In this document: positions 2,640 to 50,890 of the stretch, one piece after another
How positions within the stretch are numbered: the first letter of the stretch is position 1
Layout: every line of letters begins with the position of its first letter
The notes under the pieces: generated by a model
Database searches by the model: none
What the model was told of the DNA's origin: nothing
The model's input: the letters and a program-made list of their open reading frames with translations, nothing else
Source of the DNA: a virus
DNA length: 50,890 nt
Virus record (IMG/VR): IMGVR_UViG_3300032278_004284
Location: 1 to 50,890 of that record
Reading direction: 5' to 3' (one strand)
Made by a program: the position numbers and the translations under genes

Positions 2640-3272
2640 CTACCCGTTGTCCAACAGTTGCCGAGGATCAAGCGTCTTTCCCTCGGCGTCGTGCCAACAC
2701 TCATCTGTGAGCAGAGCAAACAGTGCCCGCTCTCGTATTTGCTTCGCGAACGCCTTCAGGCGTTTGAGGCGTTCCGGGTGATTTGTCACCCAGAGCACGT
2801 AGCCTTCGATGTCCTCATACACCTGCATTCGCTTTTCCAGCGACAGTCTGTCTTTTCGCGTGAGTTCAACTTCCACGTAGATCGTGATGGGATAAACGAT
2901 GACCGCATCCGGGCGAATCTCGTTGCGGACCCATTTCTCCAGTTCGCGGCCTCGCTGATACCAATCGAGAGGCCAGTCCAGGAGGAACTCCGTGGTAAGA
3001 ACTTCGTGTTCAAGGTTGTCCGCCTTCACGCGATGCACGCCGACGACATCAACCGGTCGTCCGGACTTGTTCATTTGGACTTGTCCGAGCGGTTTGATTT
3101 TTCCCCGTTGCCGGAGTTTTTGTGTGCGTCGGCGAGCGCTTTCGTAGCTGCTGAACCCGCACTTTTCTTTGATTTGCGAGATTGTCCCTGCGCCTTTGCC
3201 GAGGAACGAGAGTTGGAGTGCGTCCCGTTGACGCCAATCGACGGTTTGAAGAACAGTTGAGGATTCTGACAT
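2640..3272 (-). CDS. Replication-relaxation family protein (winged helix plus nuclease-like fold)
   Basis: About 210 residues from ATG (MSESSTVLQ). The N-terminal 70 residues form a winged helix (DALQLSFLGKGAGTISQIKE). The C-terminal part has RPDAVIVYP and YVEVELTRKD, followed by WVTNHPERLKRL, the pattern of the Replic_Relax family. Members often sit beside a type IV coupling ATPase in mobile elements, as here. The first 200 bases overlap the 3' end of that ATPase gene in another frame, an unusually long overlap. An in-frame GTG at 3335 is a possible earlier start. Confidence 0.65.
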   Translation of the reverse strand: MSESSTVLQTVDWRQRDALQLSFLGKGAGTISQIKEKCGFSSYESARRRTQKLRQRGKIKPLGQVQMNKSGRPVDVVGVHRVKADNLEHEVLTTEFLLDWPLDWYQRGRELEKWVRNEIRPDAVIVYPITIYVEVELTRKDRLSLEKRMQVYEDIEGYVLWVTNHPERLKRLKAFAKQIRERALFALLTDECWHDAEGKTLDPRQLLDNG

Positions 3273-5071
3273 TCGATGAACTTTCTGATGTCTGAACGCG
3301 GAGGCGGCAGGTGCGTGATTTGGACCGGAACGCACGGAAGGTTGTGGTACTGCAAGAGCACCTGACCGATGCCAAGCCGGCGGAGAATCCGCTGCATCAT
3401 TGCGTACTGTTCCTGCACGGAGTACAGCAGGCCGGCGGCATACAACTCTTCGCGATAACGAGGCTGTTGCACGAACTTCTCGGAGGCACCGGCGGTGACT
3501 CCGTTGGAGACACCGTGTTGCTCCTGCACGCCATTCGCCACTGACCGATTGTCCGTGAGGACAAGGGATTCGCCCTCTGACGTGCCCGTGTTATGCCCAT
3601 GCGATCCACCGCGGGCACGAGAATTTCCTTTCGTCGAGGTATGGGTCTTTGTGCTGGACTTACCCTTCCCTTTGGATTCCGACTCCGAATCGCTCGTCAA
3701 ACTGGAGTAAAGGCCGCCACCTGGATTGAAGACGGCGCCTCGGCCGGAGTTTTCGGTTTCCGATTCAGAATTACTGCTGCCAGCGGAATCAGACGACGAA
3801 TCCGTATCGTTCCATGTGTCCGTAAAAGCCCACCCTCGCGATTTGGTCTTCTGCGTGCCGTCGGCACGCGACTGACCAACCTGATCGGTTTTCGTCAGAC
3901 CTCGGGAGTTGTTGCTTCCGGCTGTCCGGCTGAATGTCCGCTCAACCAGGCGAATCCAATCAAACCCGTCGGGACGGTCCATCGGCCGGTACTGCTGAGT
4001 GAAGTCGAGAATGCCCGTCGCAAAGAGCTTGGAGAAGTGCTCCAGTTCCTGGTCACCTTTCTGATTAAAGCTGATCACGAGATCCGGCATCGTCATGACC
4101 TTGCCCGTGATGTCGACCTGCTTGTTCTTCAGGCTGGTCAAGTCCTGAATGGCCAGAATCAGCCGCAGCTTCCGTTTTCTGGCTCTGGCATAGGCGTCAC
4201 CGATGTCTTCGCCCAGAACTTTGTCGGCTTCGTCAATGACGAGGTAGTACGGACTCTGGACCCGATATGATGCCAGCATCGCCATTCGGATCATCAGTGA
4301 AGCAATGGCGTCAGCCTGTTCGTCCGACAGAATGTCTGTACTCTGTAGATTGGCCAGGATGACAAGTTTTCGCCCAATAGTAGATTTCCAGTCGATGGCC
4401 CTGCGATTCGGGTCGAATAGCTCGCTGATCAACGAAGCCTTGAAGAAGCTCCTGAGAATGTTGCCCGAGCTCTCGGTGTGCTGCTCTTTCTGCGTCAGAG
4501 ACATGAGCATGAGACTTGTAAAGTCTTGCCTGACTCGTGGCGGCAGATTGTGTTTCCGATTTTCGAACATCCGCCTCCATGCACCTTTGGGGCTGGCATC
4601 CAACACGTCTTCCGCACGATGGAGGCCCAGATATCGACCTCTCTTGTCTTTCGCGCCGCAGAGGTAGATTGCATTTTCCAACCATCGAGACCGCCTCATT
4701 TGGTCTTTGAAGTTATCAATGTTCTTGCTTCGGCCGATGGCGCGGGCGATCTCCTCCACCCGTGCAGGCATCTGCTCCGGAGTGATGTGTTGGAAAGGGT
4801 CCAGGCCGAAGGCGATCTCTTCTGGTTTGAAGTAAACCACTCGATCCGTCTTCCCAAGGTCTTGAAGGTACGCCAAGGTATCATCAGCGGTCTTTCCATC
4901 CCTGTCGGGCATAAATAGCCCCTCACCCCATCTCGCGAACTGCAGTGACATCACTTCGAGTAGAGATGACTTTCCATAGCCGGTCGGACCGCAAATCAAT
5001 GTCTGACGCTCATACCCTCCTTCAAGGAGGCTAACCGGCCGGTTTCCACAATTACCGATTACCGTTCTCAT
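3071..5071 (-). CDS. VirD4/TraG-like coupling ATPase
   Basis: About 666 residues from the ATG that has a GGAGG site at proper spacing. An in-frame TTG five codons earlier (5086) is less likely. Walker A is GPTGYGKSS (residues 28-36) and Walker B is YYLVIDEADK (about 275-284). A later region (IQDLTSLKNK, then PDLVISFNQK) matches the motor domain of conjugative coupling proteins and related FtsK/HerA ATPases. The N-terminal membrane segment of classical VirD4 is missing, but a two-helix membrane protein is encoded directly upstream. The middle-to-end region (about 400-510) is Ser/Gly/Asn-rich, and the last 45 residues are Lys/Ser/Ala-rich and overlap the next gene. A DNA-pumping role is inferred; the substrate is unknown. 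Confidence 0.75.
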   Translation of the reverse strand: MRTVIGNCGNRPVSLLEGGYERQTLICGPTGYGKSSLLEVMSLQFARWGEGLFMPDRDGKTADDTLAYLQDLGKTDRVVYFKPEEIAFGLDPFQHITPEQMPARVEEIARAIGRSKNIDNFKDQMRRSRWLENAIYLCGAKDKRGRYLGLHRAEDVLDASPKGAWRRMFENRKHNLPPRVRQDFTSLMLMSLTQKEQHTESSGNILRSFFKASLISELFDPNRRAIDWKSTIGRKLVILANLQSTDILSDEQADAIASLMIRMAMLASYRVQSPYYLVIDEADKVLGEDIGDAYARARKRKLRLILAIQDLTSLKNKQVDITGKVMTMPDLVISFNQKGDQELEHFSKLFATGILDFTQQYRPMDRPDGFDWIRLVERTFSRTAGSNNSRGLTKTDQVGQSRADGTQKTKSRGWAFTDTWNDTDSSSDSAGSSNSESETENSGRGAVFNPGGGLYSSLTSDSESESKGKGKSSTKTHTSTKGNSRARGGSHGHNTGTSEGESLVLTDNRSVANGVQEQHGVSNGVTAGASEKFVQQPRYREELYAAGLLYSVQEQYAMMQRILRRLGIGQVLLQYHNLPCVPVQITHLPPPRSDIRKFIECQNPQLFFKPSIGVNGTHSNSRSSAKAQGQSRKSKKSAGSAATKALADAHKNSGNGEKSNRSDKSK

Positions 5072-5426
5072 TGATTGGTCCTCCAAGAGAAATTTCCAAG
5101 TCTTCGACTGACTGATTGCGAGCTGAAGTTGGTTCGTTAGCGGAGTCTCGGTGATGCGCTGCCTGCGGTTCAGGCCGTGCGTTGTTCAGCAGTGCCTGCT
5201 TGAAATCTTGGAGTTCGCGAATCGCGTCTTCGTGATCAGCAAGCGGTTCAGCCAGGAGTCCGCCAAGCATAAGGATGGCCGAGAGGATTTCCGCCGCGAT
5301 ATGACAGGTGATCCATATTTGTGATCGACCGTCGATAACATCGATGACGACCAAAGCGAACGAACTGCACATCATCAGCATCCCGCAGTAATAGGCTCCG
5401 CGACAAAGAAGCTTCTTCATGTTCAT
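5052..5426 (-). CDS. Small membrane protein upstream of the coupling ATPase
   Basis: 124 residues starting MNMKKLLCRG after a good AAGGAG site. Two predicted membrane helices lie at about 10-28 and 36-57 with a short loop between them. A charged, disordered C-terminal tail of about 65 residues follows. The gene overlaps the ATPase gene by about 20 bases, so the two are translationally coupled. It may supply the membrane anchor that the ATPase lacks. This is inferred from context only. Confidence 0.65.
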   Translation of the reverse strand: MNMKKLLCRGAYYCGMLMMCSSFALVVIDVIDGRSQIWITCHIAAEILSAILMLGGLLAEPLADHEDAIRELQDFKQALLNNARPEPQAAHHRDSANEPTSARNQSVEDLEISLGGPINENGNR

Positions 5427-33098: not shown

Positions 33099-33120
33099 GA
33101 CCGAAATCGTACCACAAAAT

Positions 33121-33147
33121 AAAACCTTGCCGGGGCCCCGAGCAAGG
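33121..33147 (-). terminator. Rho-independent terminator on the minus strand
   Basis: Minus strand: CCTTGC..GGGGCCCC..GCAAGG, a long GC-rich hairpin, followed by TTTTATTTT. It would stop leftward transcription entering from the 34-kb region before the gene at 33098. Confidence 0.7.
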
Positions 33148-33157
33148 AGTACTTTTC

Positions 33158-33256
33158 ATGAGTGACCAGAAAAGCGAGCAGACGATAACACAACTCGCCA
33201 TCGGTGTCACAACAGTTCTTTCCGCAGGTGATTCAGTCGCCAGGTCTTCCCCGTGA
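33158..33256 (+). CDS. Possible 32-aa peptide gene
   Basis: Plus strand: AAGGAG nine bases before ATG, then 32 codons (MSDQKSEQTITQLAIGVTTV). It has a canonical ribosome site on the strand where the following structured RNA is read. It is short, and no promoter is obvious upstream, so it may be chance. Confidence 0.3.
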   Translation: MSDQKSEQTITQLAIGVTTVLSAGDSVARSSP

Positions 33257-33520
33257 GAGGCGGTAACCGGGACTACGCTATACGCTCCCGTATCTTCCTG
33301 CAGGGATTGAAGACCGCTGACGCTGACGTGCCGGGCCGCAACAAAAACGGTCCACAGCGGATGGAAGCGGCGTCTTCGGGTTCGGACCCGGGAAGTGCGA
33401 TATGCCGGAACGGAGCCGGCACGCAGAGTAGCGAGGGCGAGTACCGACCAATCCGAGGTGAGAGAAGCCGCAAACGGACCCGGAAAAACTGCACCTTGGT
33501 GGAGAGGAGGCAGGCTGAAT
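33240..33520 (+). ncRNA. Structured non-coding region, 5' part
   Basis: Dense complementary segments on the plus strand: GGTCTTC with GAAGACC, CGGGA with TCCCG, CCGCTG with CAGCGG enclosing GGGCCG with CGGTCC (G-U pair), CTTCGGGT with ACCC..GAAG around a TCGG loop, and TGCCGG with CCGGCA. No reading frame on either strand looks real. The wobble pair favours the plus strand. Confidence 0.4.
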
Positions 33521-33688
33521 CAATTTGCTGAATCGTCGCTGTGTTACACTCGGTTGGCTCCATCCGGAAGAAATACAGCAGAGCATGTTAAATCCTAATG
33601 CAGTGCAAACCATGCCCGATGTTATATCGGAGTACAGTATCCGGGAATGTTCGCTGTTTGCTGACCAATGTGAAGCAGATTCAACGTC

Positions 33689-33718
33689 TTGCGCAAATCG
33701 TCGCTGTTGTGGTTTACT
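33689..33718 (+). promoter_or_regulatory. TTGCGC-family promoter inside the non-coding region
   Basis: Plus strand: TTGCGC (33689-33694), 18 bases, TTTACT (33713-33718). Transcription would start near 33725, just before the first long stem of the candidate RNA. Part of it (AATCGTCGCTGT) is repeated 160 bases upstream near 33532. Confidence 0.5.
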
Positions 33719-33724
33719 CTGCAT

Positions 33725-34078
33725 GAGTCTTCAGCCCCCGTGCAAACGGGGTAATCGGATTCATCTCCTTGTCTTTACGACAGCACCTCAGCCTTGGGCT
33801 GAGGTTGAGGGCTCCAAGAAGATTCACGCATGTAGCAGTGTGGCTGAATAGGTAAGCAACCGTCCCTGCGGTCAAGTAGGGTGCAAGTCCCTGCCACTGC
33901 TACAGCCGTGAGTGCTCTGTGCTGGTGTGGACAAAATAGGGATGCATGCCAACTGCTGACCTTGCGGAAAAGTCTGAAAGTCGAACCAAGTTCGGCAAAC
34001 GGTACGGGCGTTGGCTCTTAGCCTGTCAGAAGCCGTTAATGCAGCGTCGAAACCTGCCACCAGCCCACAGAGCACTCT
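33725..34078 (+). ncRNA. Candidate large structured RNA with tRNA-like cloverleaf
   Basis: About 350 bases without a credible gene. Helices in order: an outer stem TCTT.AGCCC with GGGCT..AAGA; hairpins CCCCG/CGGGG and CCTCAGCC-TTG-GGCTGAGG; a cloverleaf at 33832-33903 with nine-bp closing stem GTAGCAGTG/CACTGCTAC, a T-arm-like hairpin (GTAGGG-TGCAAGT-CCCTGC) and an ACCG/CGGT arm; and an 18-bp long-range stem (GAGTGCTCTGTG..CTGGTG with CACCAG..CACAGAGCACTC) closing 130 bases that hold CGAAC/GTTCG and AACGG/CCGTT. G-U pairs fit the plus strand. Giant phage RNAs such as GOLLD and ROOL are similar in setting, but identity is not shown. Confidence 0.5.
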
Positions 34079-34085
34079 TCCACGA

Positions 34086-34112
34086 CAAAAATGCTCCCCG
34101 TTGCCGAGGAGC
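34086..34112 (-). terminator. Terminator of the 71-aa gene
   Basis: Minus strand: eight-bp stem GCTCCTCG with CGGGGAGC (one G-U pair) around a GCAA tetraloop, then ATTTTTG. It follows the stop at 34122 and separates this gene from the structured RNA region. Confidence 0.85.
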
Positions 34113-34121
34113 GTGTCCGAG

Positions 34122-34337
34122 TCAGGCGACCTCCCAGTTGAGGATCGCATCACACGTTTGCTTTGCCACGAGCCGGTCGAATTCTCGATGACCGGTAATC
34201 TCTGGCGGGAAGCCTCCACGAGAGAGCCAATACATCAGGTTCTCGGCGTGTTCTTCAATGGCTTCCCACGCTTCGCAGTCGCTCTGCACTTGCTCGAAGG
34301 CTTCGGCGAGCAACTTCCACGTTGCGTTCGGGTCCAT
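34122..34337 (-). CDS. Small acidic protein of unknown function, 71 aa
   Basis: 71 residues from ATG with a good GGAGG site eight bases upstream. Mostly helical (TWKLLAEAFEQVQSDCEAWE, then EHAENLMYWLSRGGFPPEI). No family recognised. It is an independent unit with its own TTGCGC-like promoter at 34379-34407 and a terminator, between the structured RNA and the restriction genes. Confidence 0.7.
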   Translation of the reverse strand: MDPNATWKLLAEAFEQVQSDCEAWEAIEEHAENLMYWLSRGGFPPEITGHREFDRLVAKQTCDAILNWEVA

Positions 34338-34378
34338 GAGGCACCTCCGTCGTCAAAGGAAAAGAATCGGACGGGTTG

Positions 34379-34407
34379 AGAGTGCCTAACCTGTTACCGC
34401 TGCGCAA
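34379..34407 (-). promoter_or_regulatory. TTGCGC-family promoter of the 71-aa gene
   Basis: Minus strand: TTGCGC (34402-34407), 17 bases, CACTCT (34379-34384). The -10 box is poor, but the -35 box and spacing match the family. Confidence 0.4.
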
Positions 34408-34452
34408 CTTGAATTCTTGACGCATGCTAGCCAAAATGGCGGGGACCGGATT

Positions 34453-34500
34453 CATCAGTGGTTGCAGTTGGTAGCCGCGTGCCACTGATGTTTTGTTCTT
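34453..34500 (+). terminator. Terminator before the restriction gene
   Basis: Plus strand: nine-bp perfect stem CATCAGTGG with CCACTGATG and a 20-base loop, followed by TTTTGTTCTT. It would block rightward transcription, including any read-through from the structured RNA, from entering the restriction endonuclease gene. Confidence 0.6.
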
Positions 34501-34636
34501 CGTGAGCCAATGGGCCCAACGGAAGCCGATCCCCGCGGTGCAATTCCGCTGAGCAGAATTACCCGAGGATCGTACCACTGTCCGTTGCAAGTAGTCCAGG
34601 TTCGCTAAACCCAAGCGCAGTGGACGAACTCGGACT

Positions 34637-35749
34637 ATGGAAGGGTTTTCCTTACACCCAAATGTATATTCAACCGGAGCGGCAACCGGGCTTCTTCGAA
34701 TGCTCGAACAGGTCTGGGTTCGTGAACAGACTCCGGGAGATGGGACCATCTACATCATTTCGGGGTTCGCCAACTATAACGGCGGCGTACGATTCTTCGA
34801 GGTGTTCAGGGAGCACGTTGCAAACGGAGGTCGGATTGTCGCTATTCTAGGTGGCAGCACATCGCAACGGCTGTCCAGTAAACAAATCGTGGAGGAATTG
34901 CTGAATTGCGGTGCAGAAGTCCACCTGATCAACCGCAAGCGAATTCTGCACGCCAAGTGCTACGGGGCCGAGAATTCTGACGGCGAGCGACTGGTGGTCA
35001 CATCCGGGAACTTCACTGGACCTGGCATGGGGCAGAATGTCGAGGCTGCAGTCATTCTCGAACGGGAAACAACGTTGGGGATGGGGTTTTCCTGGCAGTC
35101 CATGGTCGATGGCATTCTGTCACAGTCATGGAACATATATACGCCGACGCTTGCCGACATGAATGCTCCGGCGTGGCAGCTTCTTTACGACGAATACGCC
35201 GGAACGGTCAAGCTCGATGAATCAGAAGAATCGACCATGGTCGTGCTTCTTGGCCACGCCGACACCGCGAGAATCCAAGCCCAACCAGGTACAAACGCCG
35301 GCAAAGGAACGCAGTATTTCTGGCTGAGCAAGGACTGTTATGACTTCTTCCCGCCGCTTACAATCCGCAATCAGCGAGGCCAGAAAGCGACGTTTTCCTG
35401 CCTGATTTCGATGTACTACATGGATTTGCAGGTGGTCGATCGCAAATGCCGGGTCACGTTCGAAGCAGAGAACAACTTAGACTTCCGTCTCGGCACTGGA
35501 GCACTTCGCTATTCCGGCGTTGCTAGCAATGGGGACCTCGCTGCCATCACACGTGTATCGGAAACAGAATATGAGCTTAGAATCTTCCGAAGTGGGACCC
35601 CTGAGTTTCAGCTATTGAGGCCCTACGCGATTCATGATATTGGTCATCAGGGAAAACAGTACGGATATCTCTCGAACGATGAATTTACCCATTTCACTGG
35701 AGTTCACGTTCCAGACACAACCACTACAGCAAATTTTGCTGAGAGTTGA
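34637..35749 (+). CDS. Phospholipase D-fold restriction endonuclease (BfiI/NgoFVII-like)
   Basis: 370 residues. The N-terminal half is a PLD-type nuclease domain: GTIYIISGFANYNGGVRFF, then the catalytic ILHAKCYG with His105 and Lys107, and VTSGNFTGPG (121-130) supplying the partner Asn. One HxK motif per chain means two chains form one active site, as in BfiI. The C-terminal 200 residues are beta-rich and probably the DNA recognition domain. Two methyltransferases encoded convergently downstream complete a type IIS-like system. No Shine-Dalgarno site is seen before ATG. Confidence 0.75.
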   Translation: MEGFSLHPNVYSTGAATGLLRMLEQVWVREQTPGDGTIYIISGFANYNGGVRFFEVFREHVANGGRIVAILGGSTSQRLSSKQIVEELLNCGAEVHLINRKRILHAKCYGAENSDGERLVVTSGNFTGPGMGQNVEAAVILERETTLGMGFSWQSMVDGILSQSWNIYTPTLADMNAPAWQLLYDEYAGTVKLDESEESTMVVLLGHADTARIQAQPGTNAGKGTQYFWLSKDCYDFFPPLTIRNQRGQKATFSCLISMYYMDLQVVDRKCRVTFEAENNLDFRLGTGALRYSGVASNGDLAAITRVSETEYELRIFRSGTPEFQLLRPYAIHDIGHQGKQYGYLSNDEFTHFTGVHVPDTTTTANFAES

Positions 35750-35755
35750 TAATCA

Positions 35756-35959
35756 ATGGCTGCAAAGAACAGAAACTCAAACGAAGAACTCGTTTTGAGT
35801 CATAAAGAGGTCGCAGAAATTCTAACTAGCCGAGGGTATCCAACCACTGCGAAAGTCGCTTGGCATCTAGAGAAGAGCGCTTTGAGGAAACTTGCAGAGA
35901 ATAAAGAAATCCGACAATGGGCTGTGGATGCCGGACTACCGGTCATCGACGACGATTAA
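35756..35959 (+). CDS. Small HTH-like protein in the restriction operon
   Basis: 67 residues, helical (ELVLSHKEVAEILTSRGYPT, then LEKSALRKLAENKEIRQWAV). It starts six bases after the endonuclease stop, so it shares the same mRNA, and its stop overlaps the stop of the convergent methyltransferase by four bases. It could be a DNA-binding subunit or control protein. The family is not recognised. Confidence 0.6.
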   Translation: MAAKNRNSNEELVLSHKEVAEILTSRGYPTTAKVAWHLEKSALRKLAENKEIRQWAVDAGLPVIDDD

Positions 35960-37518
35960 CGCTTGAGTACTACCAACTCTTCAGCGGTGATTGAATTGCT
36001 CCGGTGGACGTCGTATCGGTGATATGCATCGAAGGAGAGCATCTCTTCTAGAGTCCATCCTCGACTCTCAGCCACTTCAGCGAGAAGTGTCGGTGTCTGA
36101 ATAGTAATTTCTTTCTTCTGCAGCGTAGTTGTGTTTCGGCCTACGAGAAGGGCATACTTACCGCCCCGCTTAACTTGCGATCGGACGGTTTCGAACATCG
36201 TTGCCATCTCACCAAGGTAGGCATAGACTAATGATGGGACGTTCTTTCGCCGGAAGCCGTGTGAACTATGGTCAGCCAGGTCCAAGAGTTCCACGCAGAA
36301 TCGGTGGGCAGAATCGGGCAGCTCTTTCGTATTCTCGACCAGTTCGGCTTCCATCAAACGACGCTCGGCATCCGTAATCTCTCGATTGCCAATCAGGTCT
36401 TTTTCACGTCGCCGGATTTCGCTGGCTTCCATCAATCCCAGAACAGCGAGGCTCAACCGTTGAGTATCCATGTAAGGCAGTGCAGTTGCATAAGGCGGGC
36501 TTGTAATTGCAGCATCGAATGTTCGCCGACGCCCTTCGCCGAGAATTTTATGAACAGTATCACCGGCTACGCGGCAGTCGGACTCGATGGCAATCTGCTT
36601 GGTATTGTCCGAAGGAGACACGAATTCTCGAGCACGCCTGATAGTTGCAATCTTTGAGCGAATCGACTCTACAAAGAGCTCCAAAGCGGGGTAGGTGTCC
36701 TTCGGCTCTTTTCGTCGGCGTATTCGAAGGTCCTTTGGGTCCTGCAACGAAACGTCGCGGCAAATATCGCTGAGAATCACCTTGTAGATGTTGCGATGTG
36801 ACTCACAGCTGATGGCGTCGATTGCTTCTGTAATTTGTCGAATCTGGACGAGGACTGCTTTGGGAAACCAGCTCTGAAGATACTCAATGTTTGGCAGATA
36901 GCGCTTCCAGTCTCGACCATCGCATGCTTGCCCCTGGATGCGGCCTATAATCTGCTCCGATTCCTGCTGCAAGTCATTTGGATCTGCCTTGAACGCAGCG
37001 ACTTTGGCATTAGCAATCAGAACGCCCAAGGGGTTGATATCGAATCCAACGCAATTCCAGCCAATATGAGCGGACTCCAGGAGCGTCGTACCCGATCCGC
37101 AAAACGGGTCAAGGACCCATGATCCAGGCTTCAAGCCGAAGATGTTTCCAATGGCTCTTACGACCTGCGGATTGAACTTTCCACGGTATTCGTGAAGACC
37201 GTGAGCTGAATATCGGGTGCTTTGCCGTTTTAGTTCCGGAATTGGCTGCTTAACCGGAAACCACATCGAACCATTCGTGCCAGCTGACGCTTCCAGCTTT
37301 GTCTGATCAGGGACGATATTCGCATCTGAAGCCTGAGCGACTTTGAAGTACGTCAATCGAGACAGAGATGATTCATTCTTCCCCTTGAGTGGCACCGTGA
37401 TGAAGTCGTCCTCAGCTTCCGTTACTCGGCCAAAGAACGCAGCAGCTTCCCGCTCTGCGAGCATTCGCTCGTAGGGAAAGTATCGATAGCCGTGCCATAG
37501 CAGTTGTGCGTTGCTCAT
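35956..37518 (-). CDS. DNA methyltransferase 1 of the restriction system (SPPY type)
   Basis: 520 residues. The S-adenosylmethionine motif is LDPFCGSGTTLLE (136-148) and the catalytic motif is TSPPYATALPY (339-349), the form usual in N4-cytosine methyltransferases. EYRGKFNPQVVR (110-121) is a conserved family segment. It begins two bases after the second methyltransferase, so both are made from one mRNA. Two separate enzymes suit an asymmetric recognition site, each modifying one strand. Confidence 0.8.
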   Translation of the reverse strand: MSNAQLLWHGYRYFPYERMLAEREAAAFFGRVTEAEDDFITVPLKGKNESSLSRLTYFKVAQASDANIVPDQTKLEASAGTNGSMWFPVKQPIPELKRQSTRYSAHGLHEYRGKFNPQVVRAIGNIFGLKPGSWVLDPFCGSGTTLLESAHIGWNCVGFDINPLGVLIANAKVAAFKADPNDLQQESEQIIGRIQGQACDGRDWKRYLPNIEYLQSWFPKAVLVQIRQITEAIDAISCESHRNIYKVILSDICRDVSLQDPKDLRIRRRKEPKDTYPALELFVESIRSKIATIRRAREFVSPSDNTKQIAIESDCRVAGDTVHKILGEGRRRTFDAAITSPPYATALPYMDTQRLSLAVLGLMEASEIRRREKDLIGNREITDAERRLMEAELVENTKELPDSAHRFCVELLDLADHSSHGFRRKNVPSLVYAYLGEMATMFETVRSQVKRGGKYALLVGRNTTTLQKKEITIQTPTLLAEVAESRGWTLEEMLSFDAYHRYDVHRSNSITAEELVVLKR

Positions 37519-37520
37519 GT

Positions 37521-38675
37521 TTAACCAAGTCGAAAAACGACAATGCCTTCGCGTGCGATAGTTGCGTGGGACAAGTTGAATGACTTTCGATTCATGGCGA
37601 TGTTCCGGGTAGCCAAACCGACCTTGCGAAAACCATTGTGTTTTGCCGCCCGTTCCAGCAATGCTTCGTTGTCAATTTCACGGCCGTGAATGATGGAGCG
37701 ACCAACGACAAAGCATGCGTATGCTCCGTCTTTCATTACTTTGGCAAGCAAGGAAAAACACTGTTCCATCTGCCTTTCAAAGTCGTCCTCAGTCTGATGA
37801 TTCTTCTTGAAGTAGTGCGGCCTAGCACCAATCTCTGACGTCCTGACAGCAATCGGGTCCATTCCAAGCCAATACATTCTGTACTTGTGATAAAGCCAAT
37901 ACTCGTACGCATTCGGGTACGGTGGTGAGGTGACAACCAACCCAACTTTTTCTCGCACAGATTCTGGAGATACCTGCAGGATATCCTGGTTGATGAGGTT
38001 TACCCTTGGGTCGGAGGCGAAGAGGCTTGCTCCAATTTCAACTAAAGCGGAATCCACCACTGTGGCAGCACGAACAAATTGACTCCACACATCTTCCTGC
38101 GACAGAGACTTTTCAACCGCTGCGTACCGGGTATCGCTGTCTTGATTAGACACCCGTACAATAATGCTCGATAGAGCCACCTTTAGTGCGTCGCTGATAT
38201 CCCTTGACGGGACAGCGTTGATCTCGGTAACCAACGCTGCCAATGCTTCTTGAATCGGCTTTTGAAACCAATGGTCAAGACGGGGGATCTCGGGAATTTC
38301 GAACGTTCCTTCAGTAATCCTAATCTGAGCGGTTTCACACAGATGGCGGGCAACATTGGTGACTGAGGTACTTAGTGGTGTTGTTTTGACTTTCCCAATC
38401 AAGATTGCCAAAGGATGCAAGTCGATTCCAACCGCAGGCAGCCCCGCAGATACAGCTTCAACCAAAGTGGTTCCAGAGCCACAGAACGGGTCCAAGACAG
38501 CAGAGTCATCTCCTGGATGAAACAGGGAGATGAGTCCTCTAGGAATCTGTGGTATGAACCGAGCTGGATACGGATGTATCCGGTGTGGTCCGGTATTGGT
38601 CTTTGCGTCAGCAAAGTCCCAGCAAATGGAACGCAGCTTCTCTTCAACGTTCCTGACTTCGAGCTGACTTGTCAC
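37521..38675 (-). CDS. DNA methyltransferase 2 of the restriction system (SPPY type)
   Basis: 384 residues. Motifs: HPYPARFIPQIPRGL (34-48), VLDPFCGSGTTLVEA (60-74) and TSPPYPNAYEY (249-259), again of N4-cytosine type. It shares the layout of its neighbour but is clearly a different sequence. The start overlaps the stop of the RHH gene by four bases, so the regulator and both methyltransferases form one operon from a TTGACA promoter. Confidence 0.8.
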   Translation of the reverse strand: MTSQLEVRNVEEKLRSICWDFADAKTNTGPHRIHPYPARFIPQIPRGLISLFHPGDDSAVLDPFCGSGTTLVEAVSAGLPAVGIDLHPLAILIGKVKTTPLSTSVTNVARHLCETAQIRITEGTFEIPEIPRLDHWFQKPIQEALAALVTEINAVPSRDISDALKVALSSIIVRVSNQDSDTRYAAVEKSLSQEDVWSQFVRAATVVDSALVEIGASLFASDPRVNLINQDILQVSPESVREKVGLVVTSPPYPNAYEYWLYHKYRMYWLGMDPIAVRTSEIGARPHYFKKNHQTEDDFERQMEQCFSLLAKVMKDGAYACFVVGRSIIHGREIDNEALLERAAKHNGFRKVGLATRNIAMNRKSFNLSHATIAREGIVVFRLG

Positions 38676-47003: not shown

Positions 47004-47804
47004 ATGGACATCCCCAAAGGAGGCTACAAGGTCTCCGACGAACTGTACCGTTACAAGGTCAGAGGCGACCGGTGGTATCTTCACGTACCATCGGGCACCT
47101 GGCTTCGCAACGTCACCCGGATTACTGGCAAGTATCCGGCGGACGAAGGGCTCATGCGGTGGATTTGCAGCCACGGTAGCTACGACAACTACCAGAACGC
47201 ATTGCAGCAGGCAGCCTTTCGGGGCACTGCTATCCATCGCGGCGTCGAGCAACTTCACAAAGGTCGAACTCTGGTTCAATCAGAGTACAAGCACGACGAG
47301 TGGAAAGCGCTGCTGTCGTATCAGCGGTTCATGCGGGATCACAAGCCGGAGATTATCGCGGTCGAAGAGGTCGTTTACAGCCTCAAACGCCGTCTGGCCG
47401 GCACGTTGGATCTGCGGGTCCGTCTCGATGGTCACACCGTGCTCGACATCAAGTCATCGAAGTCCGGCATCTTCCGGACCCAGATGCTCCAAGTGAACGA
47501 GTACGGTTATCTGTTCAACAGCAACGCCAACGGTCATGTGGTTGAGAAGGCCGGCGTGCTCCGCCTCGGGACCCGTCATCGTTGCGGCTTCGAGTTGAAG
47601 GTCTGGGATTTGTGCGAAGACATGCACAGAACCTTTGTCGCTCTTCACCGTGTCGACTTCGATATGGATTCCTCGATGGAGCCCACATTCCCAAAACCGC
47701 AGCCGGAGCAAATCTGTCTTGAGCAGTCCGAAAGGGCCGACGAGAAGCCCAACGGGAAACCCCACAACAACGGGCACACCAATCGTGTTGTTGTCTGGGA
47801 GTGA
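47004..47804 (+). CDS. PD-(D/E)XK nuclease, RecB/Cas4-like
   Basis: 266 residues from ATG with an AGAGGTG site. The catalytic fold is visible: FRGTAIHRGVEQLH (His in motif I), EEVVYSLKRRLAGTLDLRV (acidic Asp), VLDIKSSK (Asp-x-Lys), and QVNEYGYLF (Gln-x-x-x-Tyr). This is the layout of phage RecB-family exonucleases that process DNA ends. The C-terminal 50 residues are Pro/Gln/Glu-rich and probably disordered. It works plausibly with the SSB-like protein. Confidence 0.8.
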   Translation: MDIPKGGYKVSDELYRYKVRGDRWYLHVPSGTWLRNVTRITGKYPADEGLMRWICSHGSYDNYQNALQQAAFRGTAIHRGVEQLHKGRTLVQSEYKHDEWKALLSYQRFMRDHKPEIIAVEEVVYSLKRRLAGTLDLRVRLDGHTVLDIKSSKSGIFRTQMLQVNEYGYLFNSNANGHVVEKAGVLRLGTRHRCGFELKVWDLCEDMHRTFVALHRVDFDMDSSMEPTFPKPQPEQICLEQSERADEKPNGKPHNNGHTNRVVVWE

Positions 47805-47812
47805 GCCGCTAC

Positions 47813-47845
47813 GGCCTCTGCGTTCACACGCAGGGGCCTGTTTGA
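47813..47845 (+). terminator. Terminator of the rightward operon
   Basis: Ten-bp stem GGCCTCTGCG with CGCAGGGGCC (one G-U), loop TTCACA, then TGTTTG. Confidence 0.65.
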
Positions 47846-47936
47846 CGTTGGCAAGGCACCGGAGCCGGAGCGGACGGCGGCAGACGTTTGCGTAGGCGCG
47901 AGGTGCCGCTGCTGCGTCGCTCCGCAGCTGGAGCAT

Positions 47937-47970
47937 GAAAAAAGCCCCGATCCGCTATGGGACCGGGGCG
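47937..47970 (-). terminator. Terminator of the leftward 47975-48277 gene
   Basis: Minus strand: GCCCCGGTCC..GGATCGGGGC followed by TTTTTT, immediately after the stop at 47975. Confidence 0.85.
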
Positions 47971-47974
47971 AGAG

Positions 47975-48277
47975 CTAAAGGCAGATAGCTTTGTTGATGG
48001 CCTGCTTGAGAGTACGTAGGGCTTCGGTTTCTACGTCTTCGGGAGTTTTGGTATCAAGCAAATCCAACGCTAGGTAGCAGGCTCTAAGCAAGTCAGGAGC
48101 CGCAGCCATGAGCCTTGCGTTCGCTTTTGTTGTGACGGAGCAATCTTCTCCGAAAGTCACGCTAGCCAGCGGGTTGCCAAAGTCATTTTGAACAACCATA
48201 CCGTTGCAGCGGATTTCCGTATCAGTCTGAATGGAAAATGGACCATCGGTCTGCCAAGGTCCAGGAGTGTGAAGTGA
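47975..48277 (-). CDS. Phage protein of unknown function, relative of the 43343 gene
   Basis: 100 residues from ATG (MSLHTPGPWQTDG) after CTTTCTCCTTTTTCTC. The C-terminal KANARLMAAAPDLLRACYLA and the LHTPGPW start define a widespread small phage protein family, of which 43343-43723 encodes another member. An upstream in-frame start (13 residues earlier) is less likely. Function unknown. Confidence 0.7.
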   Translation of the reverse strand, partial: SLHTPGPWQTDGPFSIQTDTEIRCNGMVVQNDFGNPLASVTFGEDCSVTTKANARLMAAAPDLLRACYLALDLLDTKTPEDVETEALRTLKQAINKAICL

Positions 48278-49512: not shown

Positions 49513-49684
49513 TCGAGATCGGTTCATGGCAACAACGGGAAGGAAGCAAATTGGCGTGCAAGGCGTGGCACATCTGCAGACAGCAAGTACACACGTCGTA
49601 GCCGTTGATGTCGGTGACGAGAGAACCGCAGCAGTCGCTGATCGGCTCAGGTTTGACGAGATTGAGAATCTGTGAGAAGCTCAT
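49502..49684 (-). CDS. Small cysteine-rich protein, 60 aa
   Basis: 60 residues from MSFSQILNLVKPEPISDCCG. It then has DVCTCCLQMC and RCCHEP. Ten cysteine or histidine ligands could bind one or two zinc ions. ATG follows CCTCTTTCCAAATTTCCGTGTT. Longer in-frame starts exist up to 49819 but lie beyond a terminator-like hairpin, so the short form is preferred. Confidence 0.55.
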   Translation of the reverse strand: MSFSQILNLVKPEPISDCCGSLVTDINGYDVCTCCLQMCHALHANLLPSRCCHEPISNEQ

Positions 49685-50081
49685 AACACGGAAATTTGGA
49701 AAGAGGTAAAGCGGTTTACGAGAGAGCCGTTTTGCCAATGGAGGAGCACGAGCCATGTGGACGAGGTGAAGGAAACAAAACACCCGGAAGCGTTGCTCGC
49801 GGGCGTCCAGTCCGAACATCTGAAGTCAAGGAGGAGTCCCAACGGGAAGCTCCTTGACGTCAGATGCACAATGGGAAGAACGCGAGAGCTTAAAAGGGCC
49901 GACGGTATGCCCGGACCCTGCGAGAACGGTGATTTCCCCGGCGGTAGTCAGGGGAAGAGTCTGTCACAAGAGTTGTCACAGATAGGCTGGAATGAGCCGG
50001 GAAAACTGCTAGAATCTGGAATTACTGGAAACGCCGAGAGCGTTCCCTGTGATGACGCAAACACACCCCAGAACAACGTTT
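49685..50081. other. Intergenic region before the tRNA, hairpins only
   Basis: About 400 bases without a convincing gene. On the minus strand ACGCCCG with CGGGTGT and TTTTG (about 49781-49808) looks like a terminator. A long near-perfect stem at about 49825-49868 (TCAAGGAG with CTCCTTGA, inner TCCC/GGGA) has no T-run. TGC-TAGAAT at about 50006-50014 may be the -10 of the tRNA promoter. Confidence 0.4.
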
Positions 50082-50155
<74 letters not shown>

Positions 50156-50200
50156 TTTGCTTTAAGTCCTGCCGAACGCTGCAGTTAGAGCAGATTGCAC

Positions 50201-50890
50201 TTACGCGTAGCGGTAGCCGCTGTGGCGGATGTAGTTGATGAATTCAGCAGGCGTGAACTCGTCGAGAATCTTTCAGCAGTAACTCCACAGGCTCTCCATG
50301 GTGCGTCGGCCACTGCGTCGCAGCAGAGCTTTCAGTTTCGCAAACGCCTGCTCGATCGGATTGAGATCCGGCGAGTAAGGCGGCAGGAACAGCATCTCCG
50401 CTCCCACCTTTTCAATCGCCTCTCTGGCTTCGGCTCGTTTGTGACTGGAGAGATTGTCCAGAACGACGATGTCGCCAGGGCGTAAGGCGGGGGCGAGTTG
50501 CTGTTCGACATAAGCCACGAACAGGTCGCCGTTGATCGCTCCATCGATCACCGTGGGAGCCACCCAGCCCTCCGCTCTCAAGCCAGCCACAAACGTCGTC
50601 GTTTTCCAGTGGCCGTGCGGAACTTTCGCGATCAGACGGGTGCCCCGCAGCGATCGACCTCGCAGACGGGTCATGTTTGTCTTGGCCCATGTTTCGTCGA
50701 GAAACACCAGACGATTCAGGTTGAGTGTCGACTGTGACGACCGCCACAGTACGCGTTTCTGCCGAACGTCGGGGCGATCCTGCTCGGCGGCGACTAACGT
50801 CTTTTTTTTCGCGTCAGCTTGAGAGCCTTCAGGGCTCGGCAAAGCGTGGAGAGATGCAGGCCGGTCTGTAGTTTGTCCTCCAACTCCTCC
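50201..50890 (-). mobile_element. IS630-family transposase, decayed and cut by the window edge
   Basis: Minus strand, extending past the window. The DDE domain is present: LDETW, VLDNLSSH and PPYSPDLNPIEQAF. Two frames (up to LKALKLTRKK, then the DDE part) join by a -1 shift at an A8G run (about 50800-50807), as in several IS630 members that use frameshifting. The protein stops early at an in-frame TGA (50273); 24 codons later the sequence still matches a normal IS630 end (FINYIRHSGYRYA), so the copy carries a nonsense mutation. The element begins within about 45 bases of the tRNA. Confidence 0.85.

Follow-up and report, generated by a model that had tools for sequence, protein, structure and literature searches.

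Prophage setting and limits of the element

The window, which is the whole 50,890-nt stretch of viral DNA analysed here, carries prophage genes and leftward morphogenesis genes (Table 1). The nearest relatives of its terminase are found in a Schlesneria metagenome-assembled genome (MAG; 60%) and in a virus contig (56%). Its right end holds a tRNA-Arg with up to 99% identity to tRNA-Arg of genomes in the order of the Schlesneria MAG, and the host is therefore most likely a planctomycete. The tRNA-Arg (50081-50156) lies at the end opposite the integrase; together with the DDE_3 (IS630-like) transposase gene that comes after it (50273-50842), it likely marks the right prophage edge. Directly left of the tRNA-Arg, a 16-bp imperfect hairpin (49817-49866) lies within a strongly folding stretch (49681-50081; 240-nt tile z -4.7) that is perhaps an attachment site or a further RNA. 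Both strands also fold strongly at 47761-48000 (240-nt tile z -4.3 and -3.8), which we read as an inverted repeat or terminator region. On the minus strand, 3071-5086 encodes a P-loop ATPase-like protein of 671 aa, an unusual cargo for a phage, whose AAA matches are weak and lie under the curated cut-off.

Table 1. Features of the locus and of the surrounding prophage, in window positions
Feature	Position	Strand or direction	Basis or remark
Tyrosine integrase, SPP1-type portal, SU10-type capsid protein, tail protein	within the 50,890-nt window		prophage genes
Terminase	28-29.7 kb	leftward	morphogenesis genes
DUF3268-like gene	start 33098	leftward	last leftward gene before the gap
Possible extended -10 (TGGTTTACT)	33708-33724	+	sequence and position; weak; would start a transcript near 33725
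5' domain	33725-33825	+	z -5.40; 0/200 shuffles as stable
tRNA-like cloverleaf	33831-33904	+	Rfam tRNA model 29.3 bits; z -2.96
Long-range helix, 5' strand	33910-33927	+	pair probability 0.82-0.99
Interior of 3' domain	33928-34057	+	inner hairpin 33980-33986/33990-33996 best supported (p 0.87), rest ambiguous
Long-range helix, 3' strand including 2-nt bulge	34058-34077	+	shuffle test, domain fold
Intrinsic terminator, 3' of 71-aa gene	34093-34112	-	
71-aa gene	34122-34337	-	codon score +0.22, good coding signal

About 1,020 bases separate the start of the DUF3268-like gene from the 71-aa leftward gene. The preliminary description had placed a large structured non-coding RNA in this gap, with no credible gene in it, and the coding test bears out the latter point: the open reading frames that overlap 33725-34080 have codon log-odds of -0.07 to -0.15, and all those of the 33.25-34.4 kb stretch lie between -0.25 and +0.03, most of them clearly negative, against +0.03 to +0.34 for phage genes and +0.22 for the 71-aa gene. 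Beyond the gap, a rightward gene at 34637 encodes a BfiI-like restriction enzyme that is metal-independent and has a PLD domain and a BfiI DNA-binding domain; with two N4/N6 methyltransferase genes it spans 34637-38675. The BfiI-like protein has two homologues (60-64% identity), on Roseibium and Methylobacterium plasmids, and the codon score is below that of other phage genes; the three genes are thus probably a recently acquired restriction-modification cassette.

The first part of the gap (33110-33724, about 600 bases) is without gene or unusual structure and is purine-rich at 33300-33500. A start of the element at 33725, as first proposed, is reasonable and the left boundary is sound, because the preceding 615 bases have no significant fold (z -1.06, not above background). 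The structured part thus covers about 356 nt (33725-34080, plus strand) below an unstructured 615 nt, too short for the "giant" RNA that had been suggested. The phage-type promoter thought to start it was not confirmed: a consensus scan recognises no plus-strand sigma-70 promoter or terminator here, and the sole promoter-like feature is a TG-n-TTTACT string resembling an extended -10, at about 33710-33718. Three plus-strand copies of a 12-mer, AATCGTCGCTGT, lie upstream at 33531, 33646 and 33696, one of them with two changes; they could be an operator.

Fold, strand bias and the long helix

The plus strand of 33725-34078 has a minimum free energy (MFE) of -148 kcal/mol (z -4.84), which none of 100 shuffles matched, and the minus strand one of -132.7 (z -2.32). 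G-U pairs favour the plus strand, as claimed earlier, with 14 of 122 pairs on the plus strand vs 6 of 116 on the minus; the energies of mirrored structures are left out of this comparison, as non-standard pairs are not reliably scored. Each part of the element folds well by itself: the z-score of the 5' domain was obtained over 33725-33826, that of the cloverleaf is given in Table 1, and 33910-34077 has a z of -3.51. In the 5' domain, an 8-bp closing helix (33725-33732/33818-33825) encloses three or four hairpins, the strongest of which are 33736-33741/33746-33751 and 33785-33793/33797-33805. In the fold of the whole RNA, 33818-33822 can pair alternatively with 34076-34080.

The 3' domain is closed by the 18-bp helix that had been described, consisting of 12 and 6 bp around a 2-nt bulge. 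No helix in the window is longer (within 250 nt), and none of 100 dinucleotide-shuffled windows reached 18 bp, the largest helix among them being 16 bp. Fold energy alone is not unique to the locus, because other 240-nt tiles in the window have folding z of -3 to -4.9. The case is carried by the 18-bp helix and the match to the tRNA model, described below, rather than by fold energy.

The strand and the setting bear on whether the stretch acts in cis, either as DNA or in the nascent transcript, as a structured leader, an attenuator, or a replication or packaging site at a divergent junction. It does sit between leftward morphogenesis genes (DUF3268, terminase) and the rightward BfiI-like gene, with the three AATCGTCGCTGT-like 12-mers directly upstream. 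However, the better-folding plus strand runs opposite to the late operon, a minus-strand terminator (34112-34093) lies between the 71-aa gene and the RNA, and no gene directly follows on the plus strand until 34637. The locus has neither a GC-skew nor an AT-rich origin signature, and the 12-mer shows no enrichment, with 9 occurrences in the window when up to 2 mismatches are allowed vs 5.2 expected. We regard a cis-acting element as improbable. A late leader on the minus strand was also considered and was rejected because of the strand and the order of the terminator.

The tRNA-like cloverleaf

The cloverleaf first noticed from the letters alone holds up, except that its acceptor stem has 10 bp (33831-33840/33895-33904) and not nine. 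The T-arm has 6 bp, as described, with a 7-nt loop (UGCAAGU), and the 3-bp D-arm is capped by a loop containing GG. The six-base anticodon-like loop is obtained with a 4-bp arm; a 5-bp arm with a 4-nt loop is an alternative. This arm (ACCGUCCCUGCGGU) is shortened to 14 nt vs 17 in tRNA, about 3 nt short, and the variable loop is short as well. The MFE of the segment is no more than 0.5 kcal/mol below the energy of the cloverleaf.

Applied to the segment alone, the Rfam tRNA model (RF00005) matches 33834-33902 at 29.3 bits (gathering score 29), with an E-value of about 1e-5 by our own arithmetic once the search space of 83 bases and 4227 models is replaced by the whole window and this single model. 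The cloverleaf is missed by a fast whole-window Rfam scan and by ARAGORN at default settings. Relaxed ARAGORN was dropped as evidence, since it gives 45 matches in the window vs about 41 per shuffle; it did supply a control, in which none of 19 other relaxed-ARAGORN cloverleaves in the window matched the tRNA model and the test segment again scored 29.3. Because of the model match and its absence from these 19 chance cloverleaves, the cloverleaf is a genuine homologue or mimic of tRNA, and its likeness to tRNA is stronger than originally claimed.

Chance could still explain the locus, as non-coding sequence in which inverted repeats and a cloverleaf have arisen by accident. In favour of this, the sequence is an orphan and z-scores of this size recur in other 240-nt tiles, but three lines are each improbable on this account: the 18-bp helix (0/100), the fold of the 5' domain (0/200) and the controlled tRNA match. 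We consider chance improbable, slightly more so than a cis-acting element.

With an ordinary tRNA (RF00005) the cloverleaf shares the canonical order of its parts, the GG of the D-loop and the 7-nt T-loop, and it differs in the short anticodon arm, the 10-bp acceptor, a G at position 55 and the lack of CCA. Because of these differences and the 6-bp T-arm, decoding by the cloverleaf as drawn is impossible, in agreement with the earlier view that it is no working tRNA. The functional tRNA-Arg of the same window scores 64 bits.

Phages often carry and lose tRNAs. The main rival to a functional RNA is that the cloverleaf is what remains of a phage-borne tRNA gene: an ordinary tRNA that has lost three anticodon-loop bases and lies in a non-functional stretch, its flanking hairpins being incidental or derived from the old tRNA transcript. 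A tRNA model match in canonical order but well under the score of tRNA-Arg suits such a relic, as do a D-arm like that of the window's tRNA-Arg and the non-coding, unstructured character of the 600 bases upstream; the three extra outer acceptor pairs could arise by chance in an estimated few per cent of cases. Decay, however, is not what the cloverleaf displays: its arms are fully paired and its acceptor exceeds 7 bp. Nor does a relic readily account for two flanking domains that are independently more stable than shuffles, or for an 18-bp helix not expected by chance. We hold a relic to be somewhat unlikely, and both a cis-acting element and chance to be less likely than a relic.

What the cloverleaf has kept and lost is informative in this respect. 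All of its stems are intact, with an acceptor longer than that of tRNA, and the 7-nt anticodon loop, U55 and CCA are gone. Intact stems without the decoding parts are the pattern expected if shape, and not decoding, is kept.

Relatives, proposed role and known RNAs

Searches for relatives of the RNA were made at several levels. No relative was found by blastn against phages and against plasmids (E<=1), which also places the RNA on neither of the two plasmids with BfiI-like homologues. In IMG/VR, no relative was returned by an exact 20-mer scan, by a gapped D-arm/T-loop pattern that does recover the window, or by 12 back-translated patterns of 24 bases each, which sample all three domains and 2 of which lie across a joint introduced by the composite query. 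The BfiI-like and DUF3268 proteins, used as IMG/VR anchors, led to no neighbour locus. A covariance model (R1) found no relative in 398 class, 392 phylum and 170 order genomes (overlapping draws from Planctomycetota), although distant relatives could escape a model built from one sequence and genome scans that were strictly filtered. Neither did blastn on the 170 order genomes; the lone genome match (G711) covers 32 nt of the D-arm/anticodon part at E 0.27 and is read as chance. At 13 loci of terminase relatives (L004-L016), R1 gave nothing above chance, and an unfiltered search of one of them, the Schlesneria MAG prophage (L005), gave chance-level scores only. The databases searched may omit near relatives of the window. 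Since no relative was found, the support for the structure comes from folding thermodynamics, from the match to the tRNA model and from the bias between strands.

The Schlesneria MAG prophage has a homologue of the 71-aa gene (48.5% identity; L005 4682-4870), which is followed by a methyltransferase gene in place of the structured RNA. Because the 71-aa gene occurs there without the RNA, the latter appears to behave as accessory cargo. The neighbouring genes in the window point to no protein partner.

The stretch is non-coding, unusually structured, plus-strand-biased and tRNA-like. The explanation to which we give about half of our belief is that it encodes an accessory (moron-like) structured RNA of a planctomycete prophage, about 356 nt long and read from the plus strand, which would act in trans through a tRNA mimic that binds a host factor reading tRNA shape. 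The RNA would consist of three domains: a multi-hairpin 5' domain, the cloverleaf and a 3' domain closed by the 18-bp helix. The long helices may stabilise the RNA, and the elbow of the tRNA mimic, formed by the GG of the D-loop against the T-loop, could dock on a host factor that recognises the shape of tRNA and not its anticodon or CCA. Candidate factors, which might be sequestered or recruited, include RNase P, enzymes that modify tRNA and nucleases that bind it. We infer that the RNA is transcribed and has the ends given above, and that it has a binding partner and acts in trans. Its function is hypothetical because no known RNA family matched and no relative was found. A bolder and unlikely extension is a new class of phage RNA, in which an anticodon-less tRNA-shaped domain on a multi-domain scaffold would titrate or redirect a host tRNA-handling enzyme, either one of processing or modification or a defence nuclease directed at tRNA. 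This would take place in planctomycetes, in the lysogenic state or during infection.

To our knowledge, few large structured phage RNAs are known. A compact phage RNA whose non-decoding tRNA mimic has statistical support, and which comes from a poorly studied phylum, would make the binding partners of such RNAs tractable to test. Until a relative or a transcript turns up, the RNA is a single well-supported candidate.

Fold, coding test and tRNA model uphold the preliminary description of a prophage element that is structured, plus-strand and non-coding and contains a cloverleaf that is no working tRNA, but its GOLLD/ROOL label is not supported by comparison with Rfam. In scans against all 4227 Rfam models, none of the GOLLD, ROOL, HEARO and group II models, which had been named, matches at E<=10 over 33100-34700 or 33725-34080. 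The longer stretch gave a single chance-level match, to a human lncRNA model (E 0.91), and the shorter one none at E<=10; its outer pieces gave only weak chance matches. YrlA (RF02553, a bacterial Y RNA) also combines a long helix with a tRNA mimic that plays no part in translation. In the YrlA model, however, the T-arm-like part (31-47) precedes the D-arm-like part (63-81), an order shown by its weak matches to the real tRNA-Arg, whereas the order here is canonical. The model does not match the RNA locus; its only matches, sub-threshold, are both at the ordinary tRNA-Arg. The RNA is a member of none of the compared families (GOLLD, ROOL, HEARO, YrlA).

GOLLD and ROOL form homo-oligomeric RNA nanocages. 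They are elaborate non-coding RNAs of prophages, of unknown function and often near tRNAs; some GOLLD RNAs hold a tRNA in a linker, and many members exceed 800 nt (PMC12286853). The RNA described here would likewise be an elaborate non-coding RNA inside a prophage (integrase, terminase, portal, capsid), but its structured part is only about 356 nt, and the only ordinary tRNA lies 16 kb away. The nearest concept, by analogy, would be tRNA-Other of Bacillus cereus, a pseudo-tRNA within a larger regulatory RNA; its Trp anticodon is retained, its transcripts have been mapped and it has phenotypes in the host (PMC3399842). Each is a tRNA-like element that does not serve translation and is embedded in a longer non-coding stretch, in or next to a mobile element; the likeness is a descriptive one, and the RNA here differs in its truncated anticodon arm and 10-bp acceptor. 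By such analogies, it possibly works like GOLLD/ROOL or like tRNA-Other.
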